A stretch of DNA of 14,364 bases from contig USEH01000036.1 in assembly GCA_900553675.1 (NCBI GenBank), positions 1 through 14,364 on the forward strand, read 5' to 3'. Numbering within the stretch: position 1 is the first letter of the stretch; each line of letters starts with the position of its first letter. The notes below the pieces were generated by a model. The model saw only the letters and a list, made by a program, of their open reading frames with translations, did not search any database and had not been told where the DNA came from. Position numbers and translations under genes: made by a program. Below, piece by piece: positions 1-14,364 of the stretch. The stretch is from an uncultured Ruminococcus sp. (GTDB lineage Bacteria; Bacillota; Clostridia; Oscillospirales; Ruminococcaceae).

Positions 1-38
1 TACAACCGCCGTATATTTTTACTTAACTTAAAACGCCG

Positions 39-1229: not shown

Positions 1230-1267
1230 TGGTGAATGCTCCTTTGCCGATTCATTGGTTTAAATCA

Positions 1268-1296
1268 AGTATAGCACTATTTTATCACTTTGTAAA
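1268..1296 (-). promoter_or_regulatory. Sigma-A promoter of the aminotransferase gene
   Basis: Read on the minus strand this is TTTACA, a 17-bp spacer, then TATACT, about 38 bp upstream of the aminotransferase ATG. Both hexamers are one base from consensus and the spacer is optimal. Confidence 0.7.
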
Positions 1297-1358
1297 TCCC
1301 TTTTTCAGGGAGACTGCGGTAAGATTATTAGGAAATGATTAAATTTTTTCGAGTCGTA

Positions 1359-1387
1359 TTGACACATATTTCATGCAGTGATATAAT
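1359..1387 (+). promoter_or_regulatory. Consensus sigma-A promoter of the DUF975-like gene
   Basis: TTGACA, a 17-bp spacer, then TATAAT: a perfect match to the housekeeping promoter in both boxes. Transcription should begin near 1394, which leaves a 5' leader of about 118 nt before the start codon at 1512. It diverges from the aminotransferase promoter, with about 60 bp between the two -35 boxes. Confidence 0.85.
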
Positions 1388-1393
1388 AATTTT

Positions 1394-1511
1394 AGTCGAT
1401 ACCGTTTTTGGTTGAGACAACATAGGTCTGCGCCCGACTTGTATTATTACATCTCAGCAGGCTTGCATGACAGACGCTGACCGAAAATATTAAATCAGGG
1501 GGAAAAATATA
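1394..1511 (+). other. Structured 5' leader of unknown class
   Basis: The roughly 118-nt leader contains complementary segments that could form a compact fold. An outer stem pairs 1405-1412 (TTTTTGGT) with 1480-1487 (ACCGAAAA), with one G-T pair. Inside it TGAGA (1413-1417) can pair with TCTCA (1452-1456), and GTCTG (1426-1430) with CAGAC (1471-1475). The last two cross, so together they would make a pseudoknot. CAGC (1455-1458) with GCTG (1476-1479) is a competing hairpin. The purine-rich ribosome site AGGGGGA (about 1497-1503) follows the closing stem. It does not look like a riboswitch class that I recognise by eye. It could be a regulatory leader or merely an untranslated stretch with chance pairing. 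Confidence 0.4.
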
Positions 1512-2411
1512 ATGAACAATACCATTGGCTCAAATTACAAAGCGGCTACGCAGATACTCAAGGACAAAAAATGGACGCTTTGCGGACTTATTCTTTTGGA
1601 AACTGTTTTCTCAATCCTTGCGGAAATCTTCGGAATTCTGCCGATAATCAGCCTGCCGATCTGCTTTGCAATATCGGTATCGTCGGCTGCCATCTGCCTT
1701 AAGGGCGTTAGAGGCGAAAACGTTGATTCCAAAAACCTGTTCGACGGCTTTAAAAACTTCAAGCACAACGCAGGCGGCATGGCATGGATGTCGCTGTGGG
1801 TTTACATCTGGGTAATAGTTCCTGCAATTGTTTTGATTAATATAGTACTGTCAAGCGTGGGCGATGTCATAACGGCTTATATGTCATACGGCATGGGCAG
1901 ATATTACGGTGGCAGTGCTTTGTCTGCGGGCAGCATTGTTATGATCTGCATAGCGGTTATAGCTTTACTGGTCGGACTTGTTATGATGATAATCAAGTCG
2001 TTTACCTATTGCTTCACTCCTTACATACTTATGGAAAAGCCCGAAATCCACGCAATGGACGCTATAAAGGAATCCAAAAAGCTTACCATGGGCATAAGAG
2101 GAAAAATCTTCTGGGCTTACGTTATTCCGGTGGTTATACTTATAGTTATCGATATAGTTCTTGCCGTTTTTGCAATGATTCCCTTTATCGGTGTGCTGTT
2201 TGATATAATTCTTACGGTTGTAAATCTTTTATCGTCGGTTGTTCTGAGCGTATTCTTAAGCCTTGTACTTGCAAGCTTTTACAACAAGGCAACCGCTCCG
2301 GAGGCTAAGGAGGTTGTCCCTGCGGCACCGGTTATTGAAAATCCCGCACCCGCTCCTGCACCGACTCCCGCTCCTGCACCTGCGGCAGACGAGACTCCTA
2401 AAGCGGAGTAA
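1512..2411 (+). CDS. DUF975-like multi-pass membrane protein with Pro/Ala-rich tail
   Basis: A 299-aa integral membrane protein with about six hydrophobic segments (roughly residues 22-42, 43-64, 98-120, 138-165, 200-225 and 228-255). The cytoplasmic-type signature ILMEKPEIHAMDAIKESKKL followed by a basic MGIRGK stretch resembles the conserved centre of DUF975 proteins, poorly characterised membrane proteins common in Firmicutes. The N-terminus (GSNYKAATQILKDKKW) also fits that group. After the last helix comes a low-complexity tail of about 40 residues rich in alternating Pro and Ala, ending acidic. Such a tail probably extends as a flexible arm. AGGGGGA precedes the ATG by about 8 nt. It is a single-gene unit between its own promoter and a terminator. 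Its function is unknown. Confidence 0.75.
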   Translation: MNNTIGSNYKAATQILKDKKWTLCGLILLETVFSILAEIFGILPIISLPICFAISVSSAAICLKGVRGENVDSKNLFDGFKNFKHNAGGMAWMSLWVYIWVIVPAIVLINIVLSSVGDVITAYMSYGMGRYYGGSALSAGSIVMICIAVIALLVGLVMMIIKSFTYCFTPYILMEKPEIHAMDAIKESKKLTMGIRGKIFWAYVIPVVILIVIDIVLAVFAMIPFIGVLFDIILTVVNLLSSVVLSVFLSLVLASFYNKATAPEAKEVVPAAPVIENPAPAPAPTPAPAPAADETPKAE

Positions 2412-2429
2412 TTTAACTGATAAACACTT

Positions 2430-2465
2430 AGCTGTGAGGGTTAATACCCTTGCAGCTTTTGTTTT
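2430..2465 (+). terminator. Intrinsic terminator after the DUF975-like gene
   Basis: A 12-bp stem (AGCTGTGAGGGT, 2430-2441, with ACCCTTGCAGCT, 2446-2457, including two G-T pairs) closes a TAAT loop. TTTT-G-TTTT follows. It lies 18 bp after the stop codon and separates this gene from the GH115 locus. Confidence 0.8.
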
Positions 2466-2490
2466 GTCCTGATGATTTATAATATTGTCC

Positions 2491-2519
2491 TTGCAACAAC
2501 AGGAAAAATAAGCTATAAT
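2491..2519 (+). promoter_or_regulatory. Sigma-A promoter of the GH115 locus
   Basis: TTGCAA, a 17-bp spacer, then TATAAT, 34 bp upstream of the ATG at 2554. The leader is short and ends in AGGAG (2541-2545), 8 nt before the start. Confidence 0.7.
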
Positions 2520-2553
2520 TATAATGATAATTTTTACGTGAGGAGCATTATAT

Positions 2554-3249
2554 ATGAAAAAGCTTTTATCAGCGGTGTTGATCGTCCTGCTGACGGTGAC
2601 AATGGCACTCCCTGCCTTTGCAACCGAAAACGACGGTTTAAAGCTCGAGCTTGTCTCGGACAAGGAAAGCTACAGCTCGGAGGACGAAATAGTCTTATCC
2701 CTTTCCGCTCAGAACGACTCGGGGCTTGACATTAAGGACATAACCCTCAAGCACATCGCGCCGGAGGGGTATGAAGCCCCGCAGGATTCGGAACTGTCGG
2801 GATATTTAGCCTCCGGAAACCGAATGAGCCTAAAGGCTGTATACGGCGGTAAAGGCTCGGCAGCGGGCGGAAACATTTTAATGATAATCGGCATAGCTGC
2901 GGCGGGTTGTTGCTGTCGCCGTGATTGCCGTTATTATAGCAAAAGGCAAAAAAGGCAAAAATGCAGCGGCAATGACGGTCTGCATGGCGTTGCTCGGCTC
3001 GGTGGCAGCTTCTGCCGTGCCAATAAACGCCGCAGGCAATACTCAAACGCAGGAGCTGAGCTGCAATGTAAGCGTCGACGGAAAAGACGTAATATTCAAA
3101 GCGGAGGTAACATATATGAAGCCTTTGGACAATTCAGCCAAGGTAACCTTGGCAAACAGTACGGGAGCGGCGCCGGTATATATCGACCCGAAAAGCCCGG
3201 CTTACGACGGTTTATCCCTGATAGCCGAAGCGTATGCAGACGATATTGA
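2554..3249 (+). pseudogene. N-terminal fragment of frameshifted secreted GH115 protein (signal peptide, Ig-like domain, half of a TM helix)
   Basis: This reading frame starts with a clear Sec signal peptide (MKKLLS, a hydrophobic core, then cleavage after ALPAFA, residues 1-22). A domain of about 80 residues follows (25-105) with alternating beta-strand character and phrases such as NDSGLDIKDITL and APEGYE. These resemble the DUF11/CARDB-like Ig folds found on Gram-positive surface proteins. From residue 107 (NILMIIGIAAA) a membrane helix begins. It is then broken at about residue 117-118, where the frame turns into a Cys/Arg-rich sequence that continues to 3249. That tail (about 2905-3249) has no protein-like features and overlaps the real downstream frame, so only 2554 to about 2904 is meaningful. 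AGGAG 8 nt upstream supports the ATG. With the frame restored, this is the first 117 residues of a protein of about 1,275 residues. Confidence 0.7.
2904..2906 (+). other. Probable +1 frameshift site (extra G) in the GH115 gene
   Basis: The upstream frame reads Gly-Ile-Ala-Ala-Ala up to the GGG at 2904-2906. Removing one G gives Ala-Ala-Ala-Val-Val-Ala-Val-Ala-Val-Ile-Ala-Val-Ile-Ile-Ala followed by KGKKGKN, a perfect membrane helix with a positive stop-transfer end. The upstream frame continues for 345 nt past this point and the downstream frame opens at 2897, so the frames overlap with no stop at the junction. It could be a true inactivating insertion or a consensus error. Confidence 0.75.
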
Positions 3250-6200
3250 GGCGCTCTGCGGGGTAAGACCCGAAATTGCGCAGACCGAGCCGACCTCGGG
3301 GACATACGTTATAGCGGGAGTAGTGGACGACGAATTAATCGCTTCCATGAACCTAAACTGGAGCATTTCTCCCTCAAACGGCGACTTTAAGTCGGAGCAG
3401 TGGGAAAGGTATGAAATCAAGGTGGTTGAGGACGGCGGCAAGACCAAAATCGTCATAGCCGGAAGCGACAAGCGCGGCGCGATCTACGGTTTGTTCCACA
3501 TCACTCAGGACATCTTCGGCGTAAGCCCGTGGATATGGTGGGCAGACATAAAGCCTGCACACAAGGACGAGCTTGTATGCACGGCTGCGGAGCTTGAAAC
3601 GGTCTCAAAGCGTCCGTCGGTAAACTTCCGCGGATTCTTTATGAACGACGAGAACCCCTGCTTAAACGGCTTTGCAGACAGTCACTTCGGCGGCTTGAAC
3701 TATATGTTCTACGACGAGATATTCAAGCTGATTTTAAGACTTAAGGGCAACTATATGTGGCCGGCAATGTGGTCGAACAACTTCTCCAACGACGGTATGG
3801 AGGGCGTTAAGGGTGAATTTGCCGAGCTTGAAAAGCAGTATCACTACAAGCTGGGCGGACTTATGTATGTGGATCAGCCCGGCAACGAGGGCGCTTCAAA
3901 CAACACTCCCAACACAAACATAAACGCCGAGCCGGATAAGGTTTTAGGTAAAGGCGAGTACCCGATGACCCTTGCAAACGCAGTTTTAGCCGACAGATAC
4001 GGAGTTGTTGTGGGAGCCTCACACCACGAGCCTATGGCAAGAAGCGGTGGCGAGTGGGGCGGTCTTCAGGGCTACTGGGGCGGCAAAACCACCTATACCG
4101 ACCCCGAAATCAAGTCGGCAGATGGTCAGAAGGTATGGAACTATCTTTTAAACCCCAACAACTTAGAATCCTTCTGGTCAGACGCTATTTACCGCAACGG
4201 CAGCTTTGACAGCCTGTTCACCATTGGCATGAGAGGCGAAAACGACTCTGCACTTATAGACGACACCGGAAGAACCCTCACCACCGAGGAAAATATAGAT
4301 TTGCTTAAGGCGGTTTTAAGAACTCAGGACAAGATTCTTAAAAACCATGGTCTGGGCGATACGCCTTCGCTGATAGCCGTATATAAAGAGGTTGAAAACT
4401 GCTGGTACGGCGGTTCGAGAAACGATCCCAAGGCAGCTAAGGGCAAGGGACTCAGGGACGACCCCGAGGTCACCGAGCTTTTGGGTGCGGACACCAACCG
4501 CATAGTAATGCTATGCGAGGACAACAACGGCTACCTTCGCACCATGCCCGAGCTTGACGAAAAGGATAAATTCAACTGGGGACTTTACTATCACTTCGAC
4601 TATGTCGGAAGCCCCAAGACCTCGATGTGGATAAACACCATGCCGCTTCAGCGCACATGGGAGAATCTTACCACCGCCTATGAATACGGCGTTGACGACG
4701 CTTGGATTGTAAACGTCGGCGACCTGCGACCCATGGAGCTTCCTCTGAGCTACTTCATGGATTTAGCCTACAATTTTGAAAAGTACGGCACATCCAACCC
4801 CAACAACGTTTATGAATACACCGAAAAGTGGGTTAAAGAGCAGTTTGCATCCGAACCCGATATCACCGAAGAGGATATCAATACAATCACATCCCTGCTT
4901 TACGACTACACCTGGCTTAACGGCAACTGTAAGCCCGAAACCCTTAAAGAAGGCGGAGACACCTCCTACAGCATCCTGCACTATAACGACGCCGCTTCAA
5001 GGCTTGCGCTTATTGACAGCATAATCGAGCGGGCGGACGGAATCCTTGATAAGCTCAGTGAGAGCAGTCCGGCTTACACTCCTTATTATCAGCTGGTATA
5101 CTATCCGGCAGTTGCTTCTGCAAACGTTGTCAGAATTCAGATAATGTACGGTATCAACAACCTTTACGCTCAGAGAAGGTCTACCCTTGCAAACACCTAT
5201 TACGACCTTGTAAATAAGTATCTTAAGTACGACGAGGAGCTTACCGAAAAGTACATGACCCTCGGCGAAGACCTGAACGGTCTTAACAAGTGGTACGGCA
5301 TGATAATCACCTCACCCGACTACTGCAAGCAGTATAAAGACCCTGTTCTGGGCAACGTCACCGCCAAGGCGCACATGAATTATTCCAGCTGGAACGGTGA
5401 ATCCGCGGTTAAAATCACTCCCCAGAAGGTGGAAGCCGAGCAGGGCGCGCAGATGATAGTGGACATCCCGACCGAAAAGCGCGCATACAAGGCAGGAACC
5501 GCCACTCTCCCCGATTTTGAGTCCACCCAGAAGCAGGCGGTGGTTGTAAACCTGACCAACGGCGGCAATGAAGCGGTTGATTACAGCATAACCAACAACG
5601 ACGATTTCATCATCATCGAGGGCGAGACAAGCGGCTCTTACCTTGTTTCCAAGAGCTTTACCGTCAAGGTCGACTGGTCTAAGGTATCGAGCGACAAGAG
5701 CGGCAAGATAACCGTAACCGGCGGCGACAGAACGGTTGATATCGCGGTAAATGCCAAGGCTGTAGACACCTCCAAGGCGAAGCTTACAAAGACCCACTTT
5801 ATGTCGGACGGCTTAATATCCATCAAGGCGGACGATTACGCCGACAAGGGTGCTAAAAACGGCATAAGCTGGACTGTTCTTGAAGGCTACGGAAAGTCCA
5901 AGACCTCGGTCAAGATGCTTGAAACCCACACCAAGGCGTTCAAGGCGGGTGAGGGACCGTGGATAGAGTATAACTTCTATATCCCGCAGGACGGCGACTA
6001 CAAGCTTACGGTCTACGCCGGTCAGGGCAACAACGTATCATTTGACGAGGGAACTCACCTCAACGCAGGAATACAGCTTGACGGCGGAGATATAAACGCG
6101 CTCAACATTCAGGGCGAGGGCTATGTTTCCGGCGTAAGCGGCGGATGGTATGCAGCCATCGAGCAGGGCGGAAGAAGATCCGAAACCGCTCTGACGCTGA

Positions 6201-6382
6201 CCAAGGGCGAGCACACCTTAAGAATCTGGGGCATGGATCAAAATCTGGTATTGCAGAAGTTTGTTATCATGCCGGCGGAGGAAAACTTAAAGCCTTCGCT
6301 TATCGGCCCCGAGCCGACCTATAATACCTCGATGGGAGAGGTCGAGCAGAAGCAGGCACTTGCGCTTATTGTAAATGATTAA
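2921..6382 (+). CDS. GH115 xylan alpha-1,2-glucuronidase (main part of a frameshifted gene)
   Basis: A 1153-aa frame encoding a glycoside hydrolase family 115 enzyme. Known members remove glucuronic or 4-O-methylglucuronic acid from xylan side chains. Residues 1-38 hold a KGKKGKN basic patch and a second hydrophobic signal-like segment ending PINAAG. Residues 45-66 form a short beta segment (VSVDGKDVIFKAEVTY). The N-terminal GH115 domain starts near 88. Catalytic-domain signatures include RGFFMNDENP (237-246), LRLKGNYMWPAMW (272-284), GASHHEPM, TIGMRGENDSAL, YHFDYVGSPKTSMWINT and AWIVNVGDLRPMELP. The C-terminal GH115 beta-domain contains GPWIEYNFYIP and LRIWGMDQ. No signature is missing. The GTG at 2921 has no ribosome site, and the frame is open only from 2897. 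The natural start is therefore almost certainly the ATG at 2554, reached through the frame break at 2904-2906. As sequenced, whether any enzyme is made is doubtful. No dockerin or sortase motif was seen. Confidence 0.85.
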   Translation: MIAVIIAKGKKGKNAAAMTVCMALLGSVAASAVPINAAGNTQTQELSCNVSVDGKDVIFKAEVTYMKPLDNSAKVTLANSTGAAPVYIDPKSPAYDGLSLIAEAYADDIEALCGVRPEIAQTEPTSGTYVIAGVVDDELIASMNLNWSISPSNGDFKSEQWERYEIKVVEDGGKTKIVIAGSDKRGAIYGLFHITQDIFGVSPWIWWADIKPAHKDELVCTAAELETVSKRPSVNFRGFFMNDENPCLNGFADSHFGGLNYMFYDEIFKLILRLKGNYMWPAMWSNNFSNDGMEGVKGEFAELEKQYHYKLGGLMYVDQPGNEGASNNTPNTNINAEPDKVLGKGEYPMTLANAVLADRYGVVVGASHHEPMARSGGEWGGLQGYWGGKTTYTDPEIKSADGQKVWNYLLNPNNLESFWSDAIYRNGSFDSLFTIGMRGENDSALIDDTGRTLTTEENIDLLKAVLRTQDKILKNHGLGDTPSLIAVYKEVENCWYGGSRNDPKAAKGKGLRDDPEVTELLGADTNRIVMLCEDNNGYLRTMPELDEKDKFNWGLYYHFDYVGSPKTSMWINTMPLQRTWENLTTAYEYGVDDAWIVNVGDLRPMELPLSYFMDLAYNFEKYGTSNPNNVYEYTEKWVKEQFASEPDITEEDINTITSLLYDYTWLNGNCKPETLKEGGDTSYSILHYNDAASRLALIDSIIERADGILDKLSESSPAYTPYYQLVYYPAVASANVVRIQIMYGINNLYAQRRSTLANTYYDLVNKYLKYDEELTEKYMTLGEDLNGLNKWYGMIITSPDYCKQYKDPVLGNVTAKAHMNYSSWNGESAVKITPQKVEAEQGAQMIVDIPTEKRAYKAGTATLPDFESTQKQAVVVNLTNGGNEAVDYSITNNDDFIIIEGETSGSYLVSKSFTVKVDWSKVSSDKSGKITVTGGDRTVDIAVNAKAVDTSKAKLTKTHFMSDGLISIKADDYADKGAKNGISWTVLEGYGKSKTSVKMLETHTKAFKAGEGPWIEYNFYIPQDGDYKLTVYAGQGNNVSFDEGTHLNAGIQLDGGDINALNIQGEGYVSGVSGGWYAAIEQGGRRSETALTLTKGEHTLRIWGMDQNLVLQKFVIMPAEENLKPSLIGPEPTYNTSMGEVEQKQALALIVND

Positions 6383-6390
6383 TTGAAATA

Positions 6391-6426
6391 TCAGGAAGGC
6401 AAATTTGCCTTCCTGATTGACTTTTT
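6391..6426 (+). terminator. Perfect 26-bp palindrome with T-tract, terminator of the GH115 gene
   Basis: Left arm TCAGGAAGGCAAA (6391-6403) and right arm TTTGCCTTCCTGA (6404-6416) are exact reverse complements. Transcribed, they give a strong hairpin, with CTTTTT at 6421-6426 shortly after. It starts 8 bp after the GH115 stop codon. It also directly abuts the -35 box of the next promoter, so an operator role is an alternative. Confidence 0.75.
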
Positions 6427-6445
6427 CGCACAAAGCCGCTATAAT
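6417..6445 (+). promoter_or_regulatory. Sigma-A promoter of the amidohydrolase gene
   Basis: TTGACT, a 17-bp spacer, then TATAAT. The -35 box begins at the base after the perfect palindrome and the spacer contains the terminator T-tract, so the upstream terminator and downstream promoter are fused. The start codon at 6491 lies about 45 bp beyond the -10 box. Confidence 0.8.
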
Positions 6446-6490
6446 ATGACTGTTTGATTACTGACATTAATGAAAGGACTTGCAGCATAT

Positions 6491-7291
6491 ATGCGAAAAA
6501 TAGTAGACTGCCACTGCCATGTTTATCCCGATAAAATCGCCGCAAAGGCTTCGGAAAGCATAGGCAGATTCTATTCCGCCCCCATGCGCTACGACGGCAG
6601 GGTGGAAACGGTTAAGGAGCTTATAAAAAAATCGGGACTTACAAAATGCATAATCTTTTCGGTGGCGACAAAGCCCTCGCAGACCCGCTCTATAAACGAA
6701 TTTATTGCGGGAACGGTTGCCGCCGATCCAGACATTTTCACGGGCTTGGGAACGGTTCACCCCGACAGCGAGGACATCAGGGGGGATATCGATCATCTTG
6801 TGTCGCTGGGACTTAAGGGCGTAAAGCTCCACGCCGATATCCAGCAGTTCAAGACGGACGATTACCGCTGCCTTAAGATATACGACATCTGCGAGAAAAA
6901 GGGGCTGCCCGTGCTTATGCACTGCGGCGACAATCGGTTCGACTTTTCAAACCCCAACCGCATAAAGCCGATTTTGGATATCTATAAGAATCTTACAGTT
7001 ATCGGCGCACATCTGGGCGGCTATACCGTTTGGGAGGACGCACGGCGTGAGCTGAGCGGCTATGATAATTTCTATGTCGACTGCTCTTCAAGCCTGTTTG
7101 CATTTTCACCCGAAGAGGGCAAGGCGCTTATCGAGGCTTACGGCGCGGATAAGGTGCTTTTCGGCACCGATTTTCCCATGTGGGACCCGTCGGACGAGCT
7201 TGAGCGGCTGTATGCGTTGGGACTTGGTGAGGACGAGCTTGACAATATCCTATACAAAAACGCCAACCGGATTTTTGATTTGGGACTATAG
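6491..7291 (+). CDS. Amidohydrolase-2 family (TIM-barrel) metal-dependent hydrolase
   Basis: A 266-aa cytoplasmic protein of the amidohydrolase-related family (PF04909 type), whose members hydrolyse or decarboxylate small carboxylated or cyclic substrates. Metal-site motifs are in the expected order: HCH in DCHCHVYP (His8, His10), GVKLHAD (about 111-116), MHCGDN (His144), GAHLGG (His174) and the terminal aspartate in FGTDFPMWDP (Asp227). The length is at the compact end of the family. I prefer the ATG at 6491. An in-frame ATG at 6470 has no ribosome site, whereas GAAAGGA (6472-6478) lies 12 nt before 6491 and the conserved strand begins at MRKIVDCHCH. It has its own promoter and no operon partner. 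The substrate cannot be assigned. Confidence 0.8.
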   Translation: MRKIVDCHCHVYPDKIAAKASESIGRFYSAPMRYDGRVETVKELIKKSGLTKCIIFSVATKPSQTRSINEFIAGTVAADPDIFTGLGTVHPDSEDIRGDIDHLVSLGLKGVKLHADIQQFKTDDYRCLKIYDICEKKGLPVLMHCGDNRFDFSNPNRIKPILDIYKNLTVIGAHLGGYTVWEDARRELSGYDNFYVDCSSSLFAFSPEEGKALIEAYGADKVLFGTDFPMWDPSDELERLYALGLGEDELDNILYKNANRIFDLGL

Positions 7292-7347
7292 TCAATATCA
7301 ACAGGAATACGGCAAGAACTGCGGTAAAATTTATCTGAAATATCATG

Positions 7348-7376
7348 TTGACTTCGCAGATTTAAAGTGATATAAT
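7348..7376 (+). promoter_or_regulatory. Sigma-A promoter of the T-box operon
   Basis: TTGACT, a 17-bp spacer, then TATAAT. Initiation is expected near 7382-7384, immediately before the T-box stem I, giving a leader of about 335 nt before the ATG at 7719. No terminator is obvious between the amidohydrolase stop (7291) and this promoter. Confidence 0.85.
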
Positions 7377-7471
7377 CTATTCAACAAATGCGATGACGAA
7401 GACGGAAATTCCAATTGACATCTTTCAGCGAGCCGGGCATGGTGGAAGCCGGCAGATATCGGGATGCTCCC

Positions 7472-7474
7472 ATC
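7472..7474 (+). promoter_or_regulatory. Candidate T-box specifier codon ATC (Ile)
   Basis: In the 3' side of the specifier loop, ATC is followed by the customary purine (A7475) and then C, right before the lower stem I helix TTCCG and the conserved GAGC. CTC at 7467-7469 is a poorer Leu candidate because C, not a purine, follows it. The downstream BCAA-type genes fit Ile. Assigned by eye from the folding. Confidence 0.5.
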
Positions 7475-7653
7475 ACTTCCGAGCAGAAGGTCCGATAGCT
7501 TTATTATAAAGATAAAAGCGGGTAGGCGCCTTACGTGATGCTGCGTTAATGTAAAGGGCTTGTCAGAGCCTGAAAGCGGCTGAATATGTGCTGTCCATTA
7601 TGGGATGGTGTCGGTTCGGCAATTTGAGTGGTACCGCGGGTTGAAGTAATTTC

Positions 7654-7687
7654 GCTCGTCTCAAAGAAATTTGAGGCGGGCTTTTTT
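7654..7687 (+). terminator. T-box-controlled intrinsic terminator
   Basis: The 12-bp stem GCTCGTCTCAAA (7654-7665) with TTTGAGGCGGGC (7670-7681) closes a GAAA loop and is followed by TTTTTT (7682-7687). It lies 31 bp before the start codon and is mutually exclusive with the antiterminator helix. Confidence 0.92.
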
Positions 7688-7718
7688 GTCGCCTCACAAG
7701 CTGAAAGGAGAAAATATA

Positions 7719-9989
7719 ATGACCGAAAATTCACAGACAAGACTGCTTGATATCGCCGCGCGTATAAAGGAAATGCGCGAGATAATGGGCTGGAGCACCA
7801 AGGAAATGGCTGACAAAACCGAAGTCAGCGAAGCGGAATACATAACCTACGAGGCGGCAGAAGCCGACCTTCCGTTTACCTTTATCCACAAGTGCGCACT
7901 GGCTTTTGATATCGACCTTACAGACCTTTTGGAGGGCAACAACGCCGCCCGCCTTTCATCCTACACGGTTACAAGAAAGGGAATGGGTCAGAAAACAGCC
8001 AAGGAGCAGGGTATAGATATTTCCAACCTGGCGCCCATGTTCCGCAACAAAATCGCCGAGCCTTACTGGGTTAAATACGAATACTCCGCAGCTCAGCAGA
8101 ATCAGCCTATTCATCTTACCAACCACAGCGGACAGGAATTCGACCTTGTCATCAAGGGAAGCTTAAAGGTTCAGGTAGGTCCTCATATAGAGATTCTGCA
8201 CGAGGGCGACAGCATCTATTACAACTCCTCAACCCCTCACGGTATGATAGCCGTTGACGGCGCCGACTGCACCTTTTTGGCAGTTGTTCTTCCCGGAGAG
8301 GACGTTAAGGAGGAAACCGTTAGGCAGAACGTCATTCAGGCGGGCAAGTCCGAAAAGCTTATCTGCGAGCAGAAGTTTGTTGACTGCATCGAGGACGAGT
8401 ACGGCAGATTAAAGGATATCAAGTTCAAGAACCTTGAAACCTTCAACTTCGGCTTTGATATCGTGGATGAAATTGCGAATAGATACCCCGACAAGCTTGC
8501 AATGCTCCATGTCGACAAGCACCATGTTGAAAGAAGCTTTACCTTTAAGGACATTAAGCGCGCTTCCAACCAGACCGCAAACTATTTCCGCTCGCTGGGA
8601 ATAAAGAAGGGCGACAGGGTAATGCTTGTTCTTAAGAGGCATTATCAGTTCTGGTACTGCATGGTTGCGCTTCACAAGCTGGGAGCTATTGCAATTCCCG
8701 CGACCAATCAGCTTAAAGAACACGATTTCAGCTATCGCTACAACGCTGCGGGAGTGTCGGCAATCGTCTGCACTGCCGACGGCGACACTGCGGATATCGC
8801 AATGCGTGCTGCAAAGGACTGTCCCAGCGTTAAGACCTTTATAATGGTAAACGGCGTGCGCGAGGGCTGGCACGACTTTAACAACGAATACTGCCTGTTC
8901 ACCGGCAGATTCGACCGCCCCGAGGACTGCTCCTGCGGGGACGATACTGCGCTGATGTTCTTCACCTCCGGCACGACAGGCAACCCCAAGATGGCAGCCC
9001 ACAAGCACACCTACGGTTTGGGTCACTTTGTAACCGCGAAGTATTGGCACTGCTGCCAAAGGGATGGACTTCACCTTACCATCTCGGACACCGGCTGGGG
9101 CAAATCGCTTTGGGGCAAGCTTTACGGTCAGTGGATGTGCGAGGGCGCGGTGTTTGTCTACGACTTTGACAAGTTCGACGCCAACGACATCCTGCCGATG
9201 TTTGCTAAATACCAGATAACTACCTTCTGCGCTCCCCCGACAATGCTGCGAATGATGATAAAGGAGGATCTTTCAAGGTTCGACCTTTCATCAATCAGGC
9301 ATATGACCACCGCCGGAGAAGCGCTTAACCCCGAGGTTTCAAAGAAATTCAAGGAATACACCGGTCTTGAGATAATGGAGGGCTTCGGTCAGACCGAGAC
9401 TACACTTATTATAGGCAACCTGTTCGGAACGGTGCCTAAGCTTGGCTCTATGGGCAAGCCCAGCCCGCAGTTCGATGTTGATATCGTCGATCCGGACGGC
9501 AACCCATGCGCAGCCGGCGAGGTCGGAGAAATCGTTATCAGAACCGACAAGGGCTCGCCCTGCGGATTATACAAGGGCTATTATCAGGACCCCGAAAAGA
9601 CCGAGGACGTTTGGCACGACGGTATGTATCACACCTGCGACACCGCATGGCGTGATGAAGACGGCTACTTCTTCTATGTTTCCAGAATCGACGACGTTAT
9701 CAAGTCTTCGGGCTACCGCATAGGTCCGTTTGAGATTGAAAGCGTGCTGATGGAGCTGCCCTACGTTTTAGAGTGCGGAGTTTCGGGCGCACCCGACGAG
9801 ATAAGAGGTCAAGTTGTCAAGGCAAGCATAGTTCTTACAAGGGGAACAGTCCCCTCCGACGAGCTTAAAAAGGAGATTCAGCAGTATGTAAAGAGCCACA
9901 CCGCTCCTTATAAGTACCCCAGAATCATCGAGTTCAAGGATGAGCTTCCAAAGACGATAAGCGGCAAAATCCAGCGCAATAAGCTCTGA
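7719..9989 (+). CDS. XRE HTH-cupin-acyl-CoA synthetase fusion (medium-chain ACSM type)
   Basis: A 756-aa three-part protein. Residues 8-72 form an XRE/Cro helix-turn-helix (RIKEMREIMGWSTKEMADKT). Residues 115-190 form a cupin barrel (IHLTNHSGQEFDLVIKGSLK, HEGDSIYYNS, TPHGM), the usual sensor of XRE-cupin regulators. Residues 235-756 form an AMP-forming acyl-CoA synthetase with the P-loop TSGTTGNPK (416-424), SDTGWGKSLWG (456-466), GFGQTETT (555-562), KSSGYRIGPFEIES (662-675) and the adenylating lysine in ISGKIQR (Lys750). SDTGW and SGYRIGPFE resemble medium-chain synthetases, some of which use branched short acids. It would turn a fatty acid, ATP and CoA into acyl-CoA, AMP and PPi. GAAAGGAG ends 8 nt before the ATG at 7719. 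The longer in-frame TTG start at 7671 lies inside the terminator hairpin and is rejected. The C-terminus stops just after the lysine motif. The exact substrate is inferred from the T-box and the VOR/BCAT neighbours. Confidence 0.9.
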   Translation: MTENSQTRLLDIAARIKEMREIMGWSTKEMADKTEVSEAEYITYEAAEADLPFTFIHKCALAFDIDLTDLLEGNNAARLSSYTVTRKGMGQKTAKEQGIDISNLAPMFRNKIAEPYWVKYEYSAAQQNQPIHLTNHSGQEFDLVIKGSLKVQVGPHIEILHEGDSIYYNSSTPHGMIAVDGADCTFLAVVLPGEDVKEETVRQNVIQAGKSEKLICEQKFVDCIEDEYGRLKDIKFKNLETFNFGFDIVDEIANRYPDKLAMLHVDKHHVERSFTFKDIKRASNQTANYFRSLGIKKGDRVMLVLKRHYQFWYCMVALHKLGAIAIPATNQLKEHDFSYRYNAAGVSAIVCTADGDTADIAMRAAKDCPSVKTFIMVNGVREGWHDFNNEYCLFTGRFDRPEDCSCGDDTALMFFTSGTTGNPKMAAHKHTYGLGHFVTAKYWHCCQRDGLHLTISDTGWGKSLWGKLYGQWMCEGAVFVYDFDKFDANDILPMFAKYQITTFCAPPTMLRMMIKEDLSRFDLSSIRHMTTAGEALNPEVSKKFKEYTGLEIMEGFGQTETTLIIGNLFGTVPKLGSMGKPSPQFDVDIVDPDGNPCAAGEVGEIVIRTDKGSPCGLYKGYYQDPEKTEDVWHDGMYHTCDTAWRDEDGYFFYVSRIDDVIKSSGYRIGPFEIESVLMELPYVLECGVSGAPDEIRGQVVKASIVLTRGTVPSDELKKEIQQYVKSHTAPYKYPRIIEFKDELPKTISGKIQRNKL

Positions 9990-10006
9990 TTTTGGGGATT
10001 ATCCCG

Positions 10007-10046
10007 CAAAATCGCGGTATTTTGGCTTTTAAGTGCCGCGATTTTG
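10007..10046 (+). terminator. Strong stem-loop after the acyl-CoA synthetase gene, possible weak terminator
   Basis: CAAAATCGCGG (10007-10017) is an exact reverse complement of CCGCGATTTTG (10036-10046) around an 18-nt loop. There is no clean T-tract after it; the only U-run is in the 3' arm. It may be an inefficient terminator, a processing site or an mRNA stabiliser between the synthetase and the VOR genes. Confidence 0.5.
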
Positions 10047-10059
10047 TGTAGTTATACAG

Positions 10060-10088
10060 TTGATTTTATCGCATAAAAGAGTTAAAAT
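10060..10088 (+). promoter_or_regulatory. Second promoter upstream of the NTPase-VOR genes
   Basis: TTGATT, a 17-bp spacer, then TAAAAT, about 42 bp before the GTG start at 10130. Each hexamer differs from consensus by one base. It would allow T-box-independent expression of the NTPase, VOR and BCAT genes. Confidence 0.55.
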
Positions 10089-10129
10089 AGATGTATGTTA
10101 AAGCGCGGAAACGAAAAGGAGGCGGCGAT

Positions 10130-10795
10130 GTGATAAGAACCAAGCGTGTCACCCTGTTTGCCGGTCATTACGGCAGCGGAAAGACCAATATCGCGGTGAA
10201 TTATGCGGAGTATCTGCACAAGTCCGGCTTTGAAGTAGTTATCGCCGACCTTGATATTGTAAACCCCTATTTTCGCACCAAGGACAGCGCAGAGCGGCTT
10301 GAAAACTCGGGAATAAGAATCATCTCTCCCGAATACGCCAATTCAAACGTTGACCTTCCCGCCCTGCCGAGCGAGCTTTACGGAGTTGTGGAAAACCGCT
10401 CCGCCCACGCCGTTTTAGACATCGGCGGCGACGACAGGGGAGCATATGCGTTGGGAAGATTTACGCCGTATATCTTAGAAGAAAACGACTACGAGATGAT
10501 ATTCGTTGCAAACTTCTGCCGTCCGCTTACACAAACCCCCGAAGAAGCCTTAGAGGTCATGCGCGAGATTGAAGCTGCCGGTGGAATAGGGTTTACGGCA
10601 ATCGTCAACAACACGAATTTAGGAAGAGAAACCACCCCAAAGGTTGTTTACAGCAGCGCTTCAAAGGCGCAGCGGCTTTCCGAGATTTCGGGGCTTCCGG
10701 TGTTGTTCACATCTGTGGAGGATAAAATCGCGGCGGAGTTTGATATGAATGATGTCTTCCCGCTGAAGCTACAGAAAAGGTATTATGATATTTAA
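10130..10795 (+). CDS. P-loop NTPase, CobQ/MinD/ParA-like, linked to the VOR genes
   Basis: A 221-aa soluble nucleotide-binding protein. The Walker A motif is GHYGSGKT (residues 12-19). The following ADLDIVNPYFRTKD and the Walker-B-like AVLDIGGDDRGAYALG place it in the SIMIBI group (CobQ/MinD/ParA-like). It lacks the leading lysine of the deviant KGGxGKT Walker A. The GTG at 10130 is chosen because AAAGGAGG (10115-10122) lies 7 nt before it. A further upstream in-frame ATG at 10091 would add 13 basic residues and has no ribosome site. It ends 17 bp before the ferredoxin gene, so co-transcription is likely. No enzymatic role is known to me. Position suggests an accessory job for the oxidoreductase, such as maturation or Fe-S handling, but this is inference. 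Confidence 0.8.
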   Translation: MIRTKRVTLFAGHYGSGKTNIAVNYAEYLHKSGFEVVIADLDIVNPYFRTKDSAERLENSGIRIISPEYANSNVDLPALPSELYGVVENRSAHAVLDIGGDDRGAYALGRFTPYILEENDYEMIFVANFCRPLTQTPEEALEVMREIEAAGGIGFTAIVNNTNLGRETTPKVVYSSASKAQRLSEISGLPVLFTSVEDKIAAEFDMNDVFPLKLQKRYYDI

Positions 10796-10812
10796 ATAAA
10801 GGAGATAATCTA

Positions 10813-11019
10813 ATGGCAAAGGTAACTTTTAAAGAGGATATCTGCAAGGGCTGCGGCTTATGCGTTGACGCCTGCCCTAAAAAGCTTCTGATTATCGCAA
10901 AGGATAAGATCAATAAAAAGGGTCATTCTCCGGCGGCGATAACCGATATGTCCAAATGTATAGGATGCGCATTCTGCGCGACCATGTGTCCCGACTGCGT
11001 TATAACCGTTGAAAAGTAA
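10813..11019 (+). CDS. 2x[4Fe-4S] ferredoxin-type delta subunit of the 2-oxoacid oxidoreductase
   Basis: A 68-aa bacterial ferredoxin-fold protein with two complete four-cysteine motifs, CKGCGLCVDACP (about residues 12-23) and CIGCAFCATMCP (about 47-58). It would carry electrons between the catalytic alpha/beta subunits and soluble ferredoxin. AAAGGAG lies just upstream of the ATG. It starts a tight delta-alpha-beta-gamma gene run; the alpha gene begins 14 bp after its stop. Small separate delta subunits of this kind are typical of KOR/VOR enzymes in Clostridia and archaea. Confidence 0.92.
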   Translation: MAKVTFKEDICKGCGLCVDACPKKLLIIAKDKINKKGHSPAAITDMSKCIGCAFCATMCPDCVITVEK

Positions 11020-11033
11020 AGGAGCTTTAAGTT

Positions 11034-12095
11034 ATGTCAGAAAAGGTACTTATGAAGGGCAACGAGGCTATTGCCGAAGCTGCCATAAGAGCGGGCTGCC
11101 GCCACTATTTCGGCTACCCCATAACCCCTCAGACCGAGGTTGCGGCATACATGGCAAAGCGTATGCCCAAAATCGGCGGAACATTTTTGCAGGCAGAGTC
11201 TGAAATAGCCGCTATTAATATGGTTTACGGCGTTGCCGCGGCAGGTCTAAGGGCGATGACATCATCCTCCAGCCCCGGGGTTTCGCTGAAGCAGGAGGGC
11301 ATAAGCTACTTAGCAGGCTCGGATCTGCCGGCACTGATTGTAAACGTTCAGCGAGGCGGTCCCGGTCTGGGAGGAATCCAGCCCTCGCAGTCGGACTATT
11401 TCCAGGCAACCAAGGGCGGCGGACACGGCGACTATCACCTGATAGTTTTAGCTCCCGCTTCTGTTCAGGAGATGGCAGATCTTACCGCAAAGGCTTTTGA
11501 TTTGGCGGATAAATACAGAATGCCTGCTATGATTTTAGCGGACGGCACTATGGGTCAGATGATGGAGCCGGTGGAGCTTCCCGAAGAGACTAATTCATCC
11601 GTCGAAAAGCCTTGGGCGCTTACCGGAACCAAAAATCAGCGCGAGCATAATATAGTCAACTCGCTATACTTAGTCCCCGAAAAGCTTGAAAAAATCAACT
11701 TTGAAAGATACGAAAGATACAAGACCGTTGAGCAGAACGAGGTAATGTACGAGTCCTATATGATGGATGACGCGGAGCACTGCATAGTAGCCTTTGGTAT
11801 CGCGGCAAGAGTTGCTAAAAACGCCATCACCACGGCGCGTGAAAAGGGAATAAAGGTCGGAATGATCCGCCCGATAACCCTTTGGCCCTTCCCGCAGAAG
11901 GCTATTGCGGAAGCTGCTAAGCAGGTAAAAGCATTCATATCGGTAGAGCTTTCTATGGGTCAGATGATAGAAGATATCAGGCTGAGCGAGAACTGCGCAA
12001 AGCCTTGTTATCTTTGCAACCGCGCGGGCGGAATGATCCCCTCGCCGGAGGATATTATGGAAACTATAAATAAAGTAGTGGGAGGTAACAACTGA
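11034..12095 (+). CDS. vorB: 2-oxoacid:ferredoxin oxidoreductase alpha subunit, VorB type
   Basis: A 353-aa alpha subunit of a VOR/KOR-type enzyme, which interconverts 2-oxoacid and CoA with acyl-CoA, CO2 and reduced ferredoxin. Family features are the N-terminal KGNEAIAEAAIRAGCRHYFGYPITPQ region that contacts TPP across the interface, AESEIAAINMVYGVAAAG, SSSSPGVSLKQEG, the RGGPGLGG loop and LADGTMGQMMEPVE. The C-terminal transketolase-like domain (about 240-345) includes MIRPITLWPFP and SVELSMGQMIEDI. The length matches stand-alone VorB/KorA alpha subunits, unlike the long fused pyruvate enzymes. Its stop overlaps the beta start by one base (TGATG). Substrate preference for branched-chain oxoacids is inferred from the acyl-CoA synthetase and BCAT neighbours; 2-oxoglutarate or an aryl-pyruvate cannot be excluded from sequence. 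Confidence 0.85.
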   Translation: MSEKVLMKGNEAIAEAAIRAGCRHYFGYPITPQTEVAAYMAKRMPKIGGTFLQAESEIAAINMVYGVAAAGLRAMTSSSSPGVSLKQEGISYLAGSDLPALIVNVQRGGPGLGGIQPSQSDYFQATKGGGHGDYHLIVLAPASVQEMADLTAKAFDLADKYRMPAMILADGTMGQMMEPVELPEETNSSVEKPWALTGTKNQREHNIVNSLYLVPEKLEKINFERYERYKTVEQNEVMYESYMMDDAEHCIVAFGIAARVAKNAITTAREKGIKVGMIRPITLWPFPQKAIAEAAKQVKAFISVELSMGQMIEDIRLSENCAKPCYLCNRAGGMIPSPEDIMETINKVVGGNN

Positions 12096-12844
12096 TGGTA
12101 GTTTTTGATAAGCCCAAGGCGCTTACAGACGCGCCGCTGCACTATTGCCCGGGCTGTACACACGGCATTATTCACCGTCTTGTTGCCGAGGCTATAGACG
12201 AGCTTGGCATTTTAGGTGATACAATAGGCGTTGCACCGGTCGGATGCGCCGTTATGTCCTACGATTATTTCAGCTGCGATATGATAGAAGCCGCACACGG
12301 CAGAGCTCCTGCCGTCGCAACAGGCTTAAAGCGTGCAAGACCCGAGAATATCGTTTTTACATACCAAGGAGACGGCGACCTTGCCTCCATCGGTATGGCG
12401 GAAACGGTTCACGCGGCTACAAGAAACGAGAATATCACGGTAATATTTGTAAACAACGCAATCTACGGCATGACAGGCGGTCAGATGGCTCCTACCTCTT
12501 TACCAGGTCAGGTAACACAGACATCGCCATATGGCAGAGACGTTAAGACAGTAGGCTTCCCGATAAAGATATGCGAGCTTCTTTCCTCGCTGGACGGTCC
12601 CGAGTTTATTCAGAGAGTGGCTGTAAACAATGTAAAGAATGTCTTGGCGGCAAAGAAAGCCATCAAGAAGGCGTTTGAAAACCAGATTCAGGGCAAGGGC
12701 TTTTCGCTGGTAGAGGTTATATCCTCCTGCCCGACCAACTGGGGAATGACTCCTCAAAAGGCTCTTGAATGGATAGATACCAACATGATTCCTTACTACC
12801 CCTTGGGAGTATATAAAGACCGCTCTGCAAAGGAGGACAAGTAA
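12095..12844 (+). CDS. 2-oxoacid:ferredoxin oxidoreductase beta subunit (TPP-binding)
   Basis: A 249-aa TPP-binding subunit. The CPGCTHG cysteines (residues 18-24), the GCAVMSYDYFSCD segment and the TPP/Mg motif GDGDLASIG (92-100) with NNAIYGMTGGQ (120-130) are all present. It therefore has the full cofactor site. GGAGGT (12081-12086) is placed 8 nt before the ATG, inside the end of the alpha gene, so translation is coupled. The C-terminal part (about 195-235) includes GFSLVEVISSCPTNWGM, characteristic of KOR/VOR beta chains. No residue that determines substrate could be read with confidence. Confidence 0.9.
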   Translation: MVVFDKPKALTDAPLHYCPGCTHGIIHRLVAEAIDELGILGDTIGVAPVGCAVMSYDYFSCDMIEAAHGRAPAVATGLKRARPENIVFTYQGDGDLASIGMAETVHAATRNENITVIFVNNAIYGMTGGQMAPTSLPGQVTQTSPYGRDVKTVGFPIKICELLSSLDGPEFIQRVAVNNVKNVLAAKKAIKKAFENQIQGKGFSLVEVISSCPTNWGMTPQKALEWIDTNMIPYYPLGVYKDRSAKEDK

Positions 12845-12845
12845 T

Positions 12846-13382
12846 ATGTACACACAAATCCTTATAGCAGGCTTCGGCGGTCAGGGAATACTGTTCGCCG
12901 GCAAATGCTTGGCGTATCAGGGACTTATGGAGGGCAAGGAGATAAGCTGGCTTCCATCATACGGTCCTGAAATGCGCGGCGGCACGGCTAACTGCTCTGT
13001 AATCGTGGCAGATACTCCGGTAGGCTCGCCGATAGTCTCCAATCCCGATATACTTGCCGTGATGAATCTTCCATCGCTGGATAAGTACGAAAACGCGGCA
13101 GTACCTGGCGCAAAAATCTTTGTCGATTCCACGCTGATTGAAAGAAAGCTTGCACGAACCGATGTCACCGCTTACTACATTCCGGCGACCGGAATGGCAA
13201 GAGAAGCGGGAATCCCCACCCTTGCCAACATGATTTTAATAGGCAAGCTTATAAAGGAGACAGGAGTCGTAAGCTTTTCGGACATCCGCAAAGGTCTTGA
13301 AAAGGTTGTCTCTGCGCGTCATGCAGACCTGTTGGAGCTTAATTTAAAGGCTTTGGAAGCCGGATATAATTACGAAGGGTAA
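12846..13382 (+). CDS. 2-oxoacid:ferredoxin oxidoreductase gamma subunit
   Basis: A 178-aa gamma subunit of the POR/KOR/VOR family. It opens with the glycine-rich IAGFGGQGILFAGKCLA (residues 7-23). SWLPSYGPEMRGGTANC (35-51) and the VSNPDILAVMNLPSLDKY region follow, all hallmarks of this subunit, which helps form the CoA-binding face of the complex. It begins one base after the beta stop, with GGAGG just upstream. It completes a four-subunit enzyme encoded in the order delta-alpha-beta-gamma. The length is normal and no frame disruption was seen. Confidence 0.9.
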   Translation: MYTQILIAGFGGQGILFAGKCLAYQGLMEGKEISWLPSYGPEMRGGTANCSVIVADTPVGSPIVSNPDILAVMNLPSLDKYENAAVPGAKIFVDSTLIERKLARTDVTAYYIPATGMAREAGIPTLANMILIGKLIKETGVVSFSDIRKGLEKVVSARHADLLELNLKALEAGYNYEG

Positions 13383-13423
13383 TAATAATTTTATACAGAA
13401 TTTAAAACAGGAGTTGATATTTT

Positions 13424-14364
13424 ATGCTTAACATTCGCATTGAAAAGACTACTTCACCCAAGGCAAAGCCTGCAAAGGGCGCAAAGCTCGGCTTTGGTCA
13501 CATCTTCACCGACCACATGTTTGTAATGAACTACGACGAGGGTCAGGGCTGGCACGACGCAAGGGTTGTACCTTTCGGCAACATAACCCTTTCTCCTGCC
13601 GCAATGGTATTCCACTACGGTCAGACCATGTTTGAGGGCTTAAAGGCATATAAGGGCGCAAACGGCGAGGTATACCTCTTCCGCCCCGACATGAACGCTA
13701 AAAGAGCCAACAATTCCAACGACCGTTTGTGCATACCCAGAATTCCGGAGGATGATTTTGTTCAGGCGATAAAGGCTGTTGTAGACGTTGACAGAGACTG
13801 GATTCCCGAAGAGCCAGGCACATCGCTTTACATCAGACCGTTCATCATCTCCACCGACGATCATCTGGGCGTTGCTCCCTCCAAGAGCTATCTGTTCATG
13901 GTAATTCTTTCTCCCTCCGGTGCATATTACGAAAGCGGACTTGCCCCCGTCGGCATATGGATAGAGGACGAGTATGTAAGAGCGGTAAGAGGTGGTATAG
14001 GATATGCCAAGACCGGCGGCAACTACGCCGCGTCCTTAAAGGCTCAGGTAAAGGCTCATGACGACGGCTATTCTCAGGTTTTGTGGCTGGACGGCGTTGA
14101 AAGAAAGTATATCGAAGAAGTCGGCGCAATGAACATCGTCTTCAAAATCAACGGCAAAATAGTAACTCCTATGCTCAACGGCTCTATCCTGCCCGGAATC
14201 ACAAGAAACTCTGTTTTAGAGCTTTGCCGCAGCTGGGGCTATGAGGTTGAGGAAAGAAAGATTTCGGTTGACGAGCTTATCGAAGCTGCCCATTCGGGAG
14301 CGCTCGAAGAAGTCTGGGGAACAGGCACCGCGGCGGTTGTATCTCCCGTAGGAAAGCTCAGATA
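13424..14364 (+). CDS. ilvE: Branched-chain-amino-acid aminotransferase (3' end outside window)
   Basis: A fold-type-IV PLP aminotransferase that interconverts Val, Leu and Ile with their 2-oxoacids. The 313 codons present are open to the window edge; the family is usually about 340-360 residues, so little is missing. Recognisable elements are FGHIFTDHMFVMNYDEGQGW, the FHYGQTMFEGLKAYKG loop (about residues 65-80), RPFIISTDDHLGV, the Schiff-base lysine in GGIGYAKTGGNYAASLKAQ (about 187-205), and VLWLDGVERKYIEEVGAMN. Order and motifs match the larger eukaryote/Bacillus-like BCAT group, not the short E. coli IlvE. CAGGAG lies about 9 nt before the ATG. It follows the VOR gamma gene by 41 bp with no terminator, so it is probably in the same transcript and would convert the VOR product into the amino acid. 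Confidence 0.92.
   Translation, partial: MLNIRIEKTTSPKAKPAKGAKLGFGHIFTDHMFVMNYDEGQGWHDARVVPFGNITLSPAAMVFHYGQTMFEGLKAYKGANGEVYLFRPDMNAKRANNSNDRLCIPRIPEDDFVQAIKAVVDVDRDWIPEEPGTSLYIRPFIISTDDHLGVAPSKSYLFMVILSPSGAYYESGLAPVGIWIEDEYVRAVRGGIGYAKTGGNYAASLKAQVKAHDDGYSQVLWLDGVERKYIEEVGAMNIVFKINGKIVTPMLNGSILPGITRNSVLELCRSWGYEVEERKISVDELIEAAHSGALEEVWGTGTAAVVSPVGKLR

Follow-up and report, generated by a model that had tools for sequence, protein, structure and literature searches.

Can a bacterium draw its isoleucine from 2-methylbutyrate, and can it switch on this supply as soon as isoleucine runs low? The question is raised by a gene cluster on contig USEH01000036.1 of an uncultured Ruminococcus sp. (assembly GCA_900553675.1), of which we analysed positions 1 to 14,364 of the forward strand (14,364 nucleotides, here called the window). 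The cluster joins a T-box leader to genes for an acyl-CoA synthetase (ACS), a 2-ketoisovalerate-type 2-ketoacid:ferredoxin oxidoreductase (VOR) and a branched-chain aminotransferase (BCAT). Conversion of branched acids to amino acids in rumen anaerobes was reportedly described by Robinson and Allison in 1969 and by Allison and Peel in 1971. The leader, its specifier, the gene order, the protein families and the co-absence of classical pathway genes in relatives are observed here. Taken together, they indicate that the cluster probably encodes a salvage route from 2-methylbutyrate that is switched by isoleucine starvation. Uncharged tRNA-Ile would pair with the ATC specifier and the T-box motif, the leader terminator would not form, and the ACS would be made. 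The ACS would convert 2-methylbutyrate to 2-methylbutyryl-CoA, the VOR subunits VorB, VorA and VorC with ferredoxin would carboxylate this reductively to 2-keto-3-methylvalerate, and the BCAT would transaminate the keto acid to isoleucine.

The switch lies on the plus strand, as do all cluster features described below. A strong sigma-A type promoter (TTGACT-17-TATAAT, 7348–7376) was found by promoter scan with 11 of 12 consensus matches, and a T-box leader follows at 7384–7666 (Rfam RF00230, 75.6 bits, E 1.3e-16), so that both elements named in the initial annotation were confirmed. In a search of 551 bases the alignment spanned the whole model (1–219 of 219). Since the Rfam gathering score is 93, a scan of the window at the gathering threshold gave no match, and the leader emerged only in E-value mode. 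Among 12 ACS leaders from seven relatives' loci, six attained this threshold, with 94.7 to 111.8 bits, and six fell below it. In the columns taken to be the specifier of RF00230, the window carries ATC, an isoleucine codon (7472–7474), followed by A and a CTTC stem arm that pairs with GAAG. The T-box motif TGGTACCGCG of the antiterminator, which pairs with the tRNA acceptor end, was located at 7629–7638 both in the sequence and in the covariance-model alignment. The antiterminator columns were aligned, and the terminator scan gave a competing hairpin at 7654–7681 followed by TTTTTT. The leader had first been read as a switch for all three branched-chain amino acids; judged by its codon, the switch in the window is specific to isoleucine, and the defensible product is therefore isoleucine. 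Amino-acid starvation as the trigger is supported by comparison.

The gene directly behind the leader (7719–9989) starts at an ATG with a good ribosome-binding site and encodes a 756-residue ACS with an N-terminal helix-turn-helix (HTH) and cupin part. In Pfam the fusion comprises HTH, cupin, AMP-binding and AMP-binding C domains; the cupin and AMP-binding domains scored above their cut-offs, the HTH below its own. The best match in the PDB was 3etc with 642 bits, against 355 for the next. This entry is MacsMa of Methanosarcina acetivorans, for which the part of PMC10455477 consulted gives 2-methylbutyrate as the preferred acyl substrate and describes Trp259 as critical for substrate binding. 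In the printed alignment, with an offset assumed for the PDB-chain numbering, Trp259 aligns with W465 of the window ACS, within the motif TGWGKSLW, which also contains G461. The best NCBIfam relative was MbcS (AcylCoAsynMbcS, NF047394), below its cut-off. The excerpt of PMC10026030 that we used states that MbcS of Staphylococcus aureus acts on 2-methylbutyrate and isobutyrate and primes fatty acid synthesis. Branched acids as the likely ACS substrates, as first proposed, are thus supported by comparison with the nearest solved synthetase.

Downstream of the ACS stand a P-loop NTPase of ParA/NUBPL-like type (10130–10795; GTG start after AAAGGAGG), a 68-residue VorD-like ferredoxin subunit with two 4Fe-4S motifs recognised in its sequence (10813–11019), the alpha subunit VorB (11034–12095; NF005507, 565.7 bits against a cut-off of 399), the thiamine pyrophosphate (TPP)-binding beta subunit VorA (12095–12844; PF02775, and NCBIfam PorB_KorB with 119.8 against a cut-off of 261.9), the gamma subunit VorC (12846–13382; PF01558, 120.6 bits) and a BCAT of IlvE type II (13424–14364). 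The last is cut by the window end, and the incomplete protein nevertheless passed its cut-off (TIGR01123, 362.8 against 250.05). VorB, VorA and VorC with the ferredoxin are predicted to form a VOR acting on branched 2-keto acids. The proposed set of ACS, NTPase, four VOR-type subunits and BCAT on one strand therefore stood, with the NTPase recognized by sub-threshold Pfam matches; the Pfam and NCBIfam search gave no family above cut-off for it, and a role in Fe-S maturation would be a guess.

The accompanying claim that no strong terminator separates these genes was not confirmed. Folding revealed a 16–17-bp stem 3' of the ACS (10007–10046, about −22 kcal/mol; A-rich on its 5' side and T-rich on its 3' side), which is a candidate terminator and may or may not terminate transcription; it is absent from the terminator-scan list and few T residues follow it. 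Behind it lies a promoter-like site (TTGATT-17-TAAAAT, 10060–10088), which is weak because sites at its level of 9 of 12 matches occurred eight times, compared with 6.8 in shuffled sequence. Since the hairpin and this site separate the ACS from the NTPase–VOR–BCAT genes, only the entry enzyme is clearly under the T-box. Control of the other genes is uncertain, and in the window organism the VOR–BCAT genes may have a separate transcript.

Relatives of the cluster extend this picture to a second amino acid. We compared 80 loci, the best 80 of at least 584 confirmed stretches. Specifier codons were counted by a script with a stem-pairing rule, which replaced a first parser that lacked the rule and returned many false codons; the second-ACS leaders of L002, L003, L025, L027, L054, L060, L075 and L079 and the first-ACS leaders of L012 and L017 were read by eye with the expected answer known. 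The 400 bases upstream of the first-type ACS contained a T-box motif in 72 of the 80 loci; among the eight without it, the upstream DNA covered is limited to 252 bases in L040 and to 9 bases in L080. With the window included, the script read ATC in 69 of 73 first-type leaders; of the remainder, L012 and L017 carry ATC by eye, L014 is incomplete and L077 carries GTC. A second ACS with its own T-box was found in 45 of the 80 loci, downstream of the first and about 60% identical to it. Its leaders read GTA in 35 cases and GTC in two by script, and GTA or GTC by eye in the other eight; the codon of L003 was also read by the covariance model. The second ACS with its valine T-box probably serves the valine branch in these relatives. 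In L010 a T-box stands before the BCAT instead of an ACS (position 11645), with an uncertain GTA parse (three of four stem pairs).

The two synthetase types also differ in the protein. One position in the catalytic part separates them almost perfectly (81 versus 46 sequences): position 461, which precedes W465 by four residues, holds Gly in 79 of 81 first-type proteins, as in the window, and Ala in all 46 of the second type. At position 464, Leu occurs in 80 of 81 first-type proteins, compared with Met in 31, Ala in 13 and Thr in two of the 46 others. Position 461 is presumably equivalent to an acetate-pocket residue of acetyl-CoA synthetase. The Gly/Ala split suggests that the two types use different acids, and it would make sense if the pocket that takes isobutyrate were smaller than the one that takes 2-methylbutyrate. 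One first-type protein without G461 is that of L077, the locus with the GTC T-box, where codon and pocket residue seem to have changed together. Most type-separating positions (43 of 50) fall in the HTH–cupin part (residues 1–230 of 756). Because of this bias and the double change in L077, we consider a wider arrangement possible, if doubtful: a modular system in which each branched acid would have its own ligase and each ligase its own codon-matched T-box, in which the fused HTH–cupin part would sense the end product or the acid, in which RNA switch and sensor would diverge together with the pocket, and by which lineages would swap the classical pathway one amino acid at a time.

The typical order in relatives is T-box(Ile)–ACS1–T-box(Val)–ACS2–NTPase–ferredoxin–VorB–VorA–VorC–BCAT, with the BCAT at times before the NTPase and at times outside the view. 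In 58 of the 80 loci the NTPase lies downstream of an ACS and in the same orientation, and 54 of these also hold VorB. ACS and NTPase are no more than 62 bases apart in 31 of the 58, so that the VOR genes there should be co-transcribed with a T-box-controlled ligase. The closest of the relatives listed, L081, whose ACS is 87% identical, carries both units complete in a genome where no IlvC was found; the window itself has the isoleucine unit only. For the genome of the window organism, one-ACS relatives would suggest that IlvC is present, and L081 that it is absent. Seven more genomes with a single first-type ACS were drawn from a sample of the same order, and an ATC T-box was found in four of these loci (L082, L083, L084 and L085). 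Among one-ACS relatives, L082 was searched for a T-box ahead of the NTPase, and none was detected; by eye, the ACS–NTPase gap of this locus seems to hold a GNAT-like reading frame. A distant version in L090 (genome G107, 6832–12965; ACS 60% and VorB 51% identical) consists of an ATC T-box, ACS, VorB–VorA–VorC and BCAT; no NTPase match was found between its ACS and VorB, and no IlvC match in its genome. In L024 a TPP riboswitch (1431–1550, 60.1 bits) lies upstream on the same strand; VOR requires TPP. Where a host is named for the 80 relatives, it is in most cases a herbivore (goat, sheep, deer, yak, buffalo, cattle, rabbit or horse); this does not establish a rumen origin of the window.

To see whether the module replaces the classical pathway, we searched for the classical enzymes in the genomes of 50 of the 80 loci, 48 of which have VorB at the locus. 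IlvC was present in nine of the 50 and the IlvD family in 11, nine of the latter being the IlvC genomes. The IlvA model TIGR01127 matched over its cut-off in four and at E ≤ 1e-60 in six; the citramalate synthase (CimA) model matched in none over its cut-off and in two at E ≤ 1e-40. Ribosomal protein L13, a control for completeness, was found in 45. Within the set of 48 that have VorB there, IlvC occurred in one of 36 genomes with two ACS genes at the locus versus eight of 12 with one (Fisher p 1.1e-5, uncorrected for kinship). In the order sample (297 genomes, completeness filter 90) IlvC was present in 174, namely in 13 of 97 genomes with at least two ACS matches (E ≤ 1e-120) versus 161 of 200 others, with some of these ACS matches lacking the HTH–cupin part. 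Among the matches listed at 65% identity or more, IlvC was kept in all eight one-match genomes (four of them without an IlvA match) and in three of 31 two-match genomes. On a tree of 55 VOR sequences each trait must have changed 13 times or more, so that the link between ACS number and IlvC probably arose repeatedly; of six well-supported independent contrasts on this tree, about four agreed, about none opposed and two showed no difference. In relatives, then, absence of IlvC, IlvD and mostly IlvA accompanies the module, most of all where it has two ACS genes, and the route most likely tends to replace the classical pathway.

Several results weigh against this reading of the cluster. Six loci with ample upstream DNA (L010, L037, L043, L064, L066 and L075) have no T-box motif before the first ACS, nor do L086, L087 and L088 from the order sample, and no VOR was found near the ACS in the fetched locus L087. 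The ACS of L023 lacks G461 and yet has an ATC T-box, which breaks the rule linking residue and codon and is unexplained. The window ACS scored 440.5 against 850 for NF047394 and so falls outside the MbcS equivalog. In the control genomes the IlvC and IlvD models matched in 14 of 14, whereas those for IlvA and CimA passed their cut-offs in only five of 14 each and therefore undercount. No IlvC was found in the genomes of four of the 12 one-ACS loci. Three of the eight IlvC-bearing one-ACS genomes also carry IlvA, and IlvC with IlvA occurs beside the module in four of the 50 genomes, so that a complete classical pathway can coexist with it. The contrast test, with a median p of 0.125, was not significant by itself.

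Three other explanations were weighed. The module might use a broader range of acids than 2-methylbutyrate alone. VOR and BCAT enzymes usually accept all three branched keto acids, S. aureus MbcS takes both 2-methylbutyrate and isobutyrate (PMC10026030, in the part consulted), and a one-ACS module of broad range would suit the four genomes in which IlvC was not found. We regard this as unlikely, though not negligibly so, in view of the absence of a found IlvC from 35 of 36 two-ACS genomes, its retention in all eight one-match genomes listed from the order sample at 65% identity or more, and the different acids suggested by G461 and A461. The ACS could instead feed branched-chain (anteiso) fatty acid synthesis, with the VOR a secondary neighbour; MbcS, its best NCBIfam relative albeit below cut-off, primes that synthesis according to the same excerpt. 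Lipid priming would not lead one to expect a conserved cluster with both a VOR and a transaminase, a T-box specific to an amino acid, paralogues that match their codons or the loss of IlvC and IlvD, which makes this explanation improbable.

Least probable of all, and very much so, is a catabolic use in which BCAT, VOR and ligase would run in reverse and ferment isoleucine to 2-methylbutyrate with a gain of ATP. VOR is reversible and oxidises branched keto acids in other anaerobes; however, a T-box activates genes when its amino acid is short, an AMP-forming ligase consumes ATP, and IlvC and IlvD are missing from most of the cluster-bearing genomes examined. The anabolic direction proposed at the outset is thus favoured by comparison: by the isoleucine codon, by a nearest solved synthetase that prefers 2-methylbutyrate and by the co-absence of IlvC and IlvD in relatives.

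Other observations concern leucine and the remaining window genes. Outside the ACS genes, the parsed leaders included T-boxes reading CTC in eight cases and CTG in one, and where tested (L044, L070 and L076) the leucine-type T-box stands before a short LeuA-like protein. These genes belong to a third unit, located at L012:3363–7213, L076:3555–8627, L070:18701–20166, L044:10164–11853 and L081:704–5390. Behind the LeuA-like gene, L012, L076 and L081 encode a protein that joins a xylose-isomerase-like TIM barrel to an AMP-dependent ligase (Pfam on L012 and L076), and in L076 and L081 an amidohydrolase comes next; in L081 the 700 bases covered ahead of the LeuA-like gene yielded no T-box. The third unit may hide an unusual leucine-linked pathway. 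A protein with a LeuA-type dimer domain was found in 48 of the 50 genomes (G001–G050), but the listing gave LeuD-sized frames that match Aconitase_C for no genomes other than G006, G028 and G043. The aconitase of G001 (L091:1860–3788) was rejected as a leucine isomerase, being an aconitate hydratase (976 bits against a cut-off of 612). The window amidohydrolase at 6470–7291 is 72% identical to that of L081 and may be a remnant of the third unit. Further upstream, the frame 2554–3249 has a signal-peptide-like start and shares DNA, in a different reading frame, with the beginning of a GH115 frame of alpha-glucuronidase type (2921–6382), possibly through a frameshift. On the minus strand, 39–1229 encodes a stand-alone aminotransferase. 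Its top-scoring NCBIfam models, MocR-type regulators (PdxR), stayed below cut-off; the Pfam and NCBIfam search found no HTH in it.

That rumen bacteria turn branched acids into amino acids, that an archaeal synthetase prefers 2-methylbutyrate and that T-boxes control amino acid genes is already known. The open-licence library searched, which leaves out most subscription papers, yielded no paper that connects a ligase of this kind, or VOR, with a T-box, and none that defines a regulated set of genes by which rumen bacteria use branched volatile acids. The cluster offers a candidate for such a set, with a locus, a switch whose codon can be read and a testable substrate rule at one Gly/Ala position. 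It would allow a prediction, at the level of genomes, of which strains require which acid, and would improve auxotrophy calls in gut genomes, where absence of IlvC may be taken for amino acid dependence. T-box codons could also serve as a means of reading ligase substrates.

Compared with known systems, the window leader shares the specifier and TGGTACCGCG with the T-box regulons described in the parts of PMC2494555 and PMC3766115 consulted. Its target differs, being an acid-activating ligase; the words acyl-CoA, ketoisovalerate and oxidoreductase are absent from the main texts of both papers. MacsMa shares the acyl-site Trp with the window ACS and is its best PDB relative, but it is archaeal, and its 580-residue chain matches only the catalytic part and so gives no match to the HTH–cupin part. 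S. aureus MbcS, judged by the excerpt of PMC10026030, is likewise an AMP-forming synthetase for 2-methylbutyrate and isobutyrate, but it serves branched-chain fatty acids. Closest in outcome is the rumen route, for which the part of PMC7356843 consulted cites the formation of isoleucine from 2-methylbutyrate and of valine from isobutyrate in rumen anaerobes. The overall conversion, from branched acid to amino acid, would be the same. There it is described as physiology without genes, whereas the window presents a defined locus with its own switch, from a family of clusters whose paralogues are split by amino acid.

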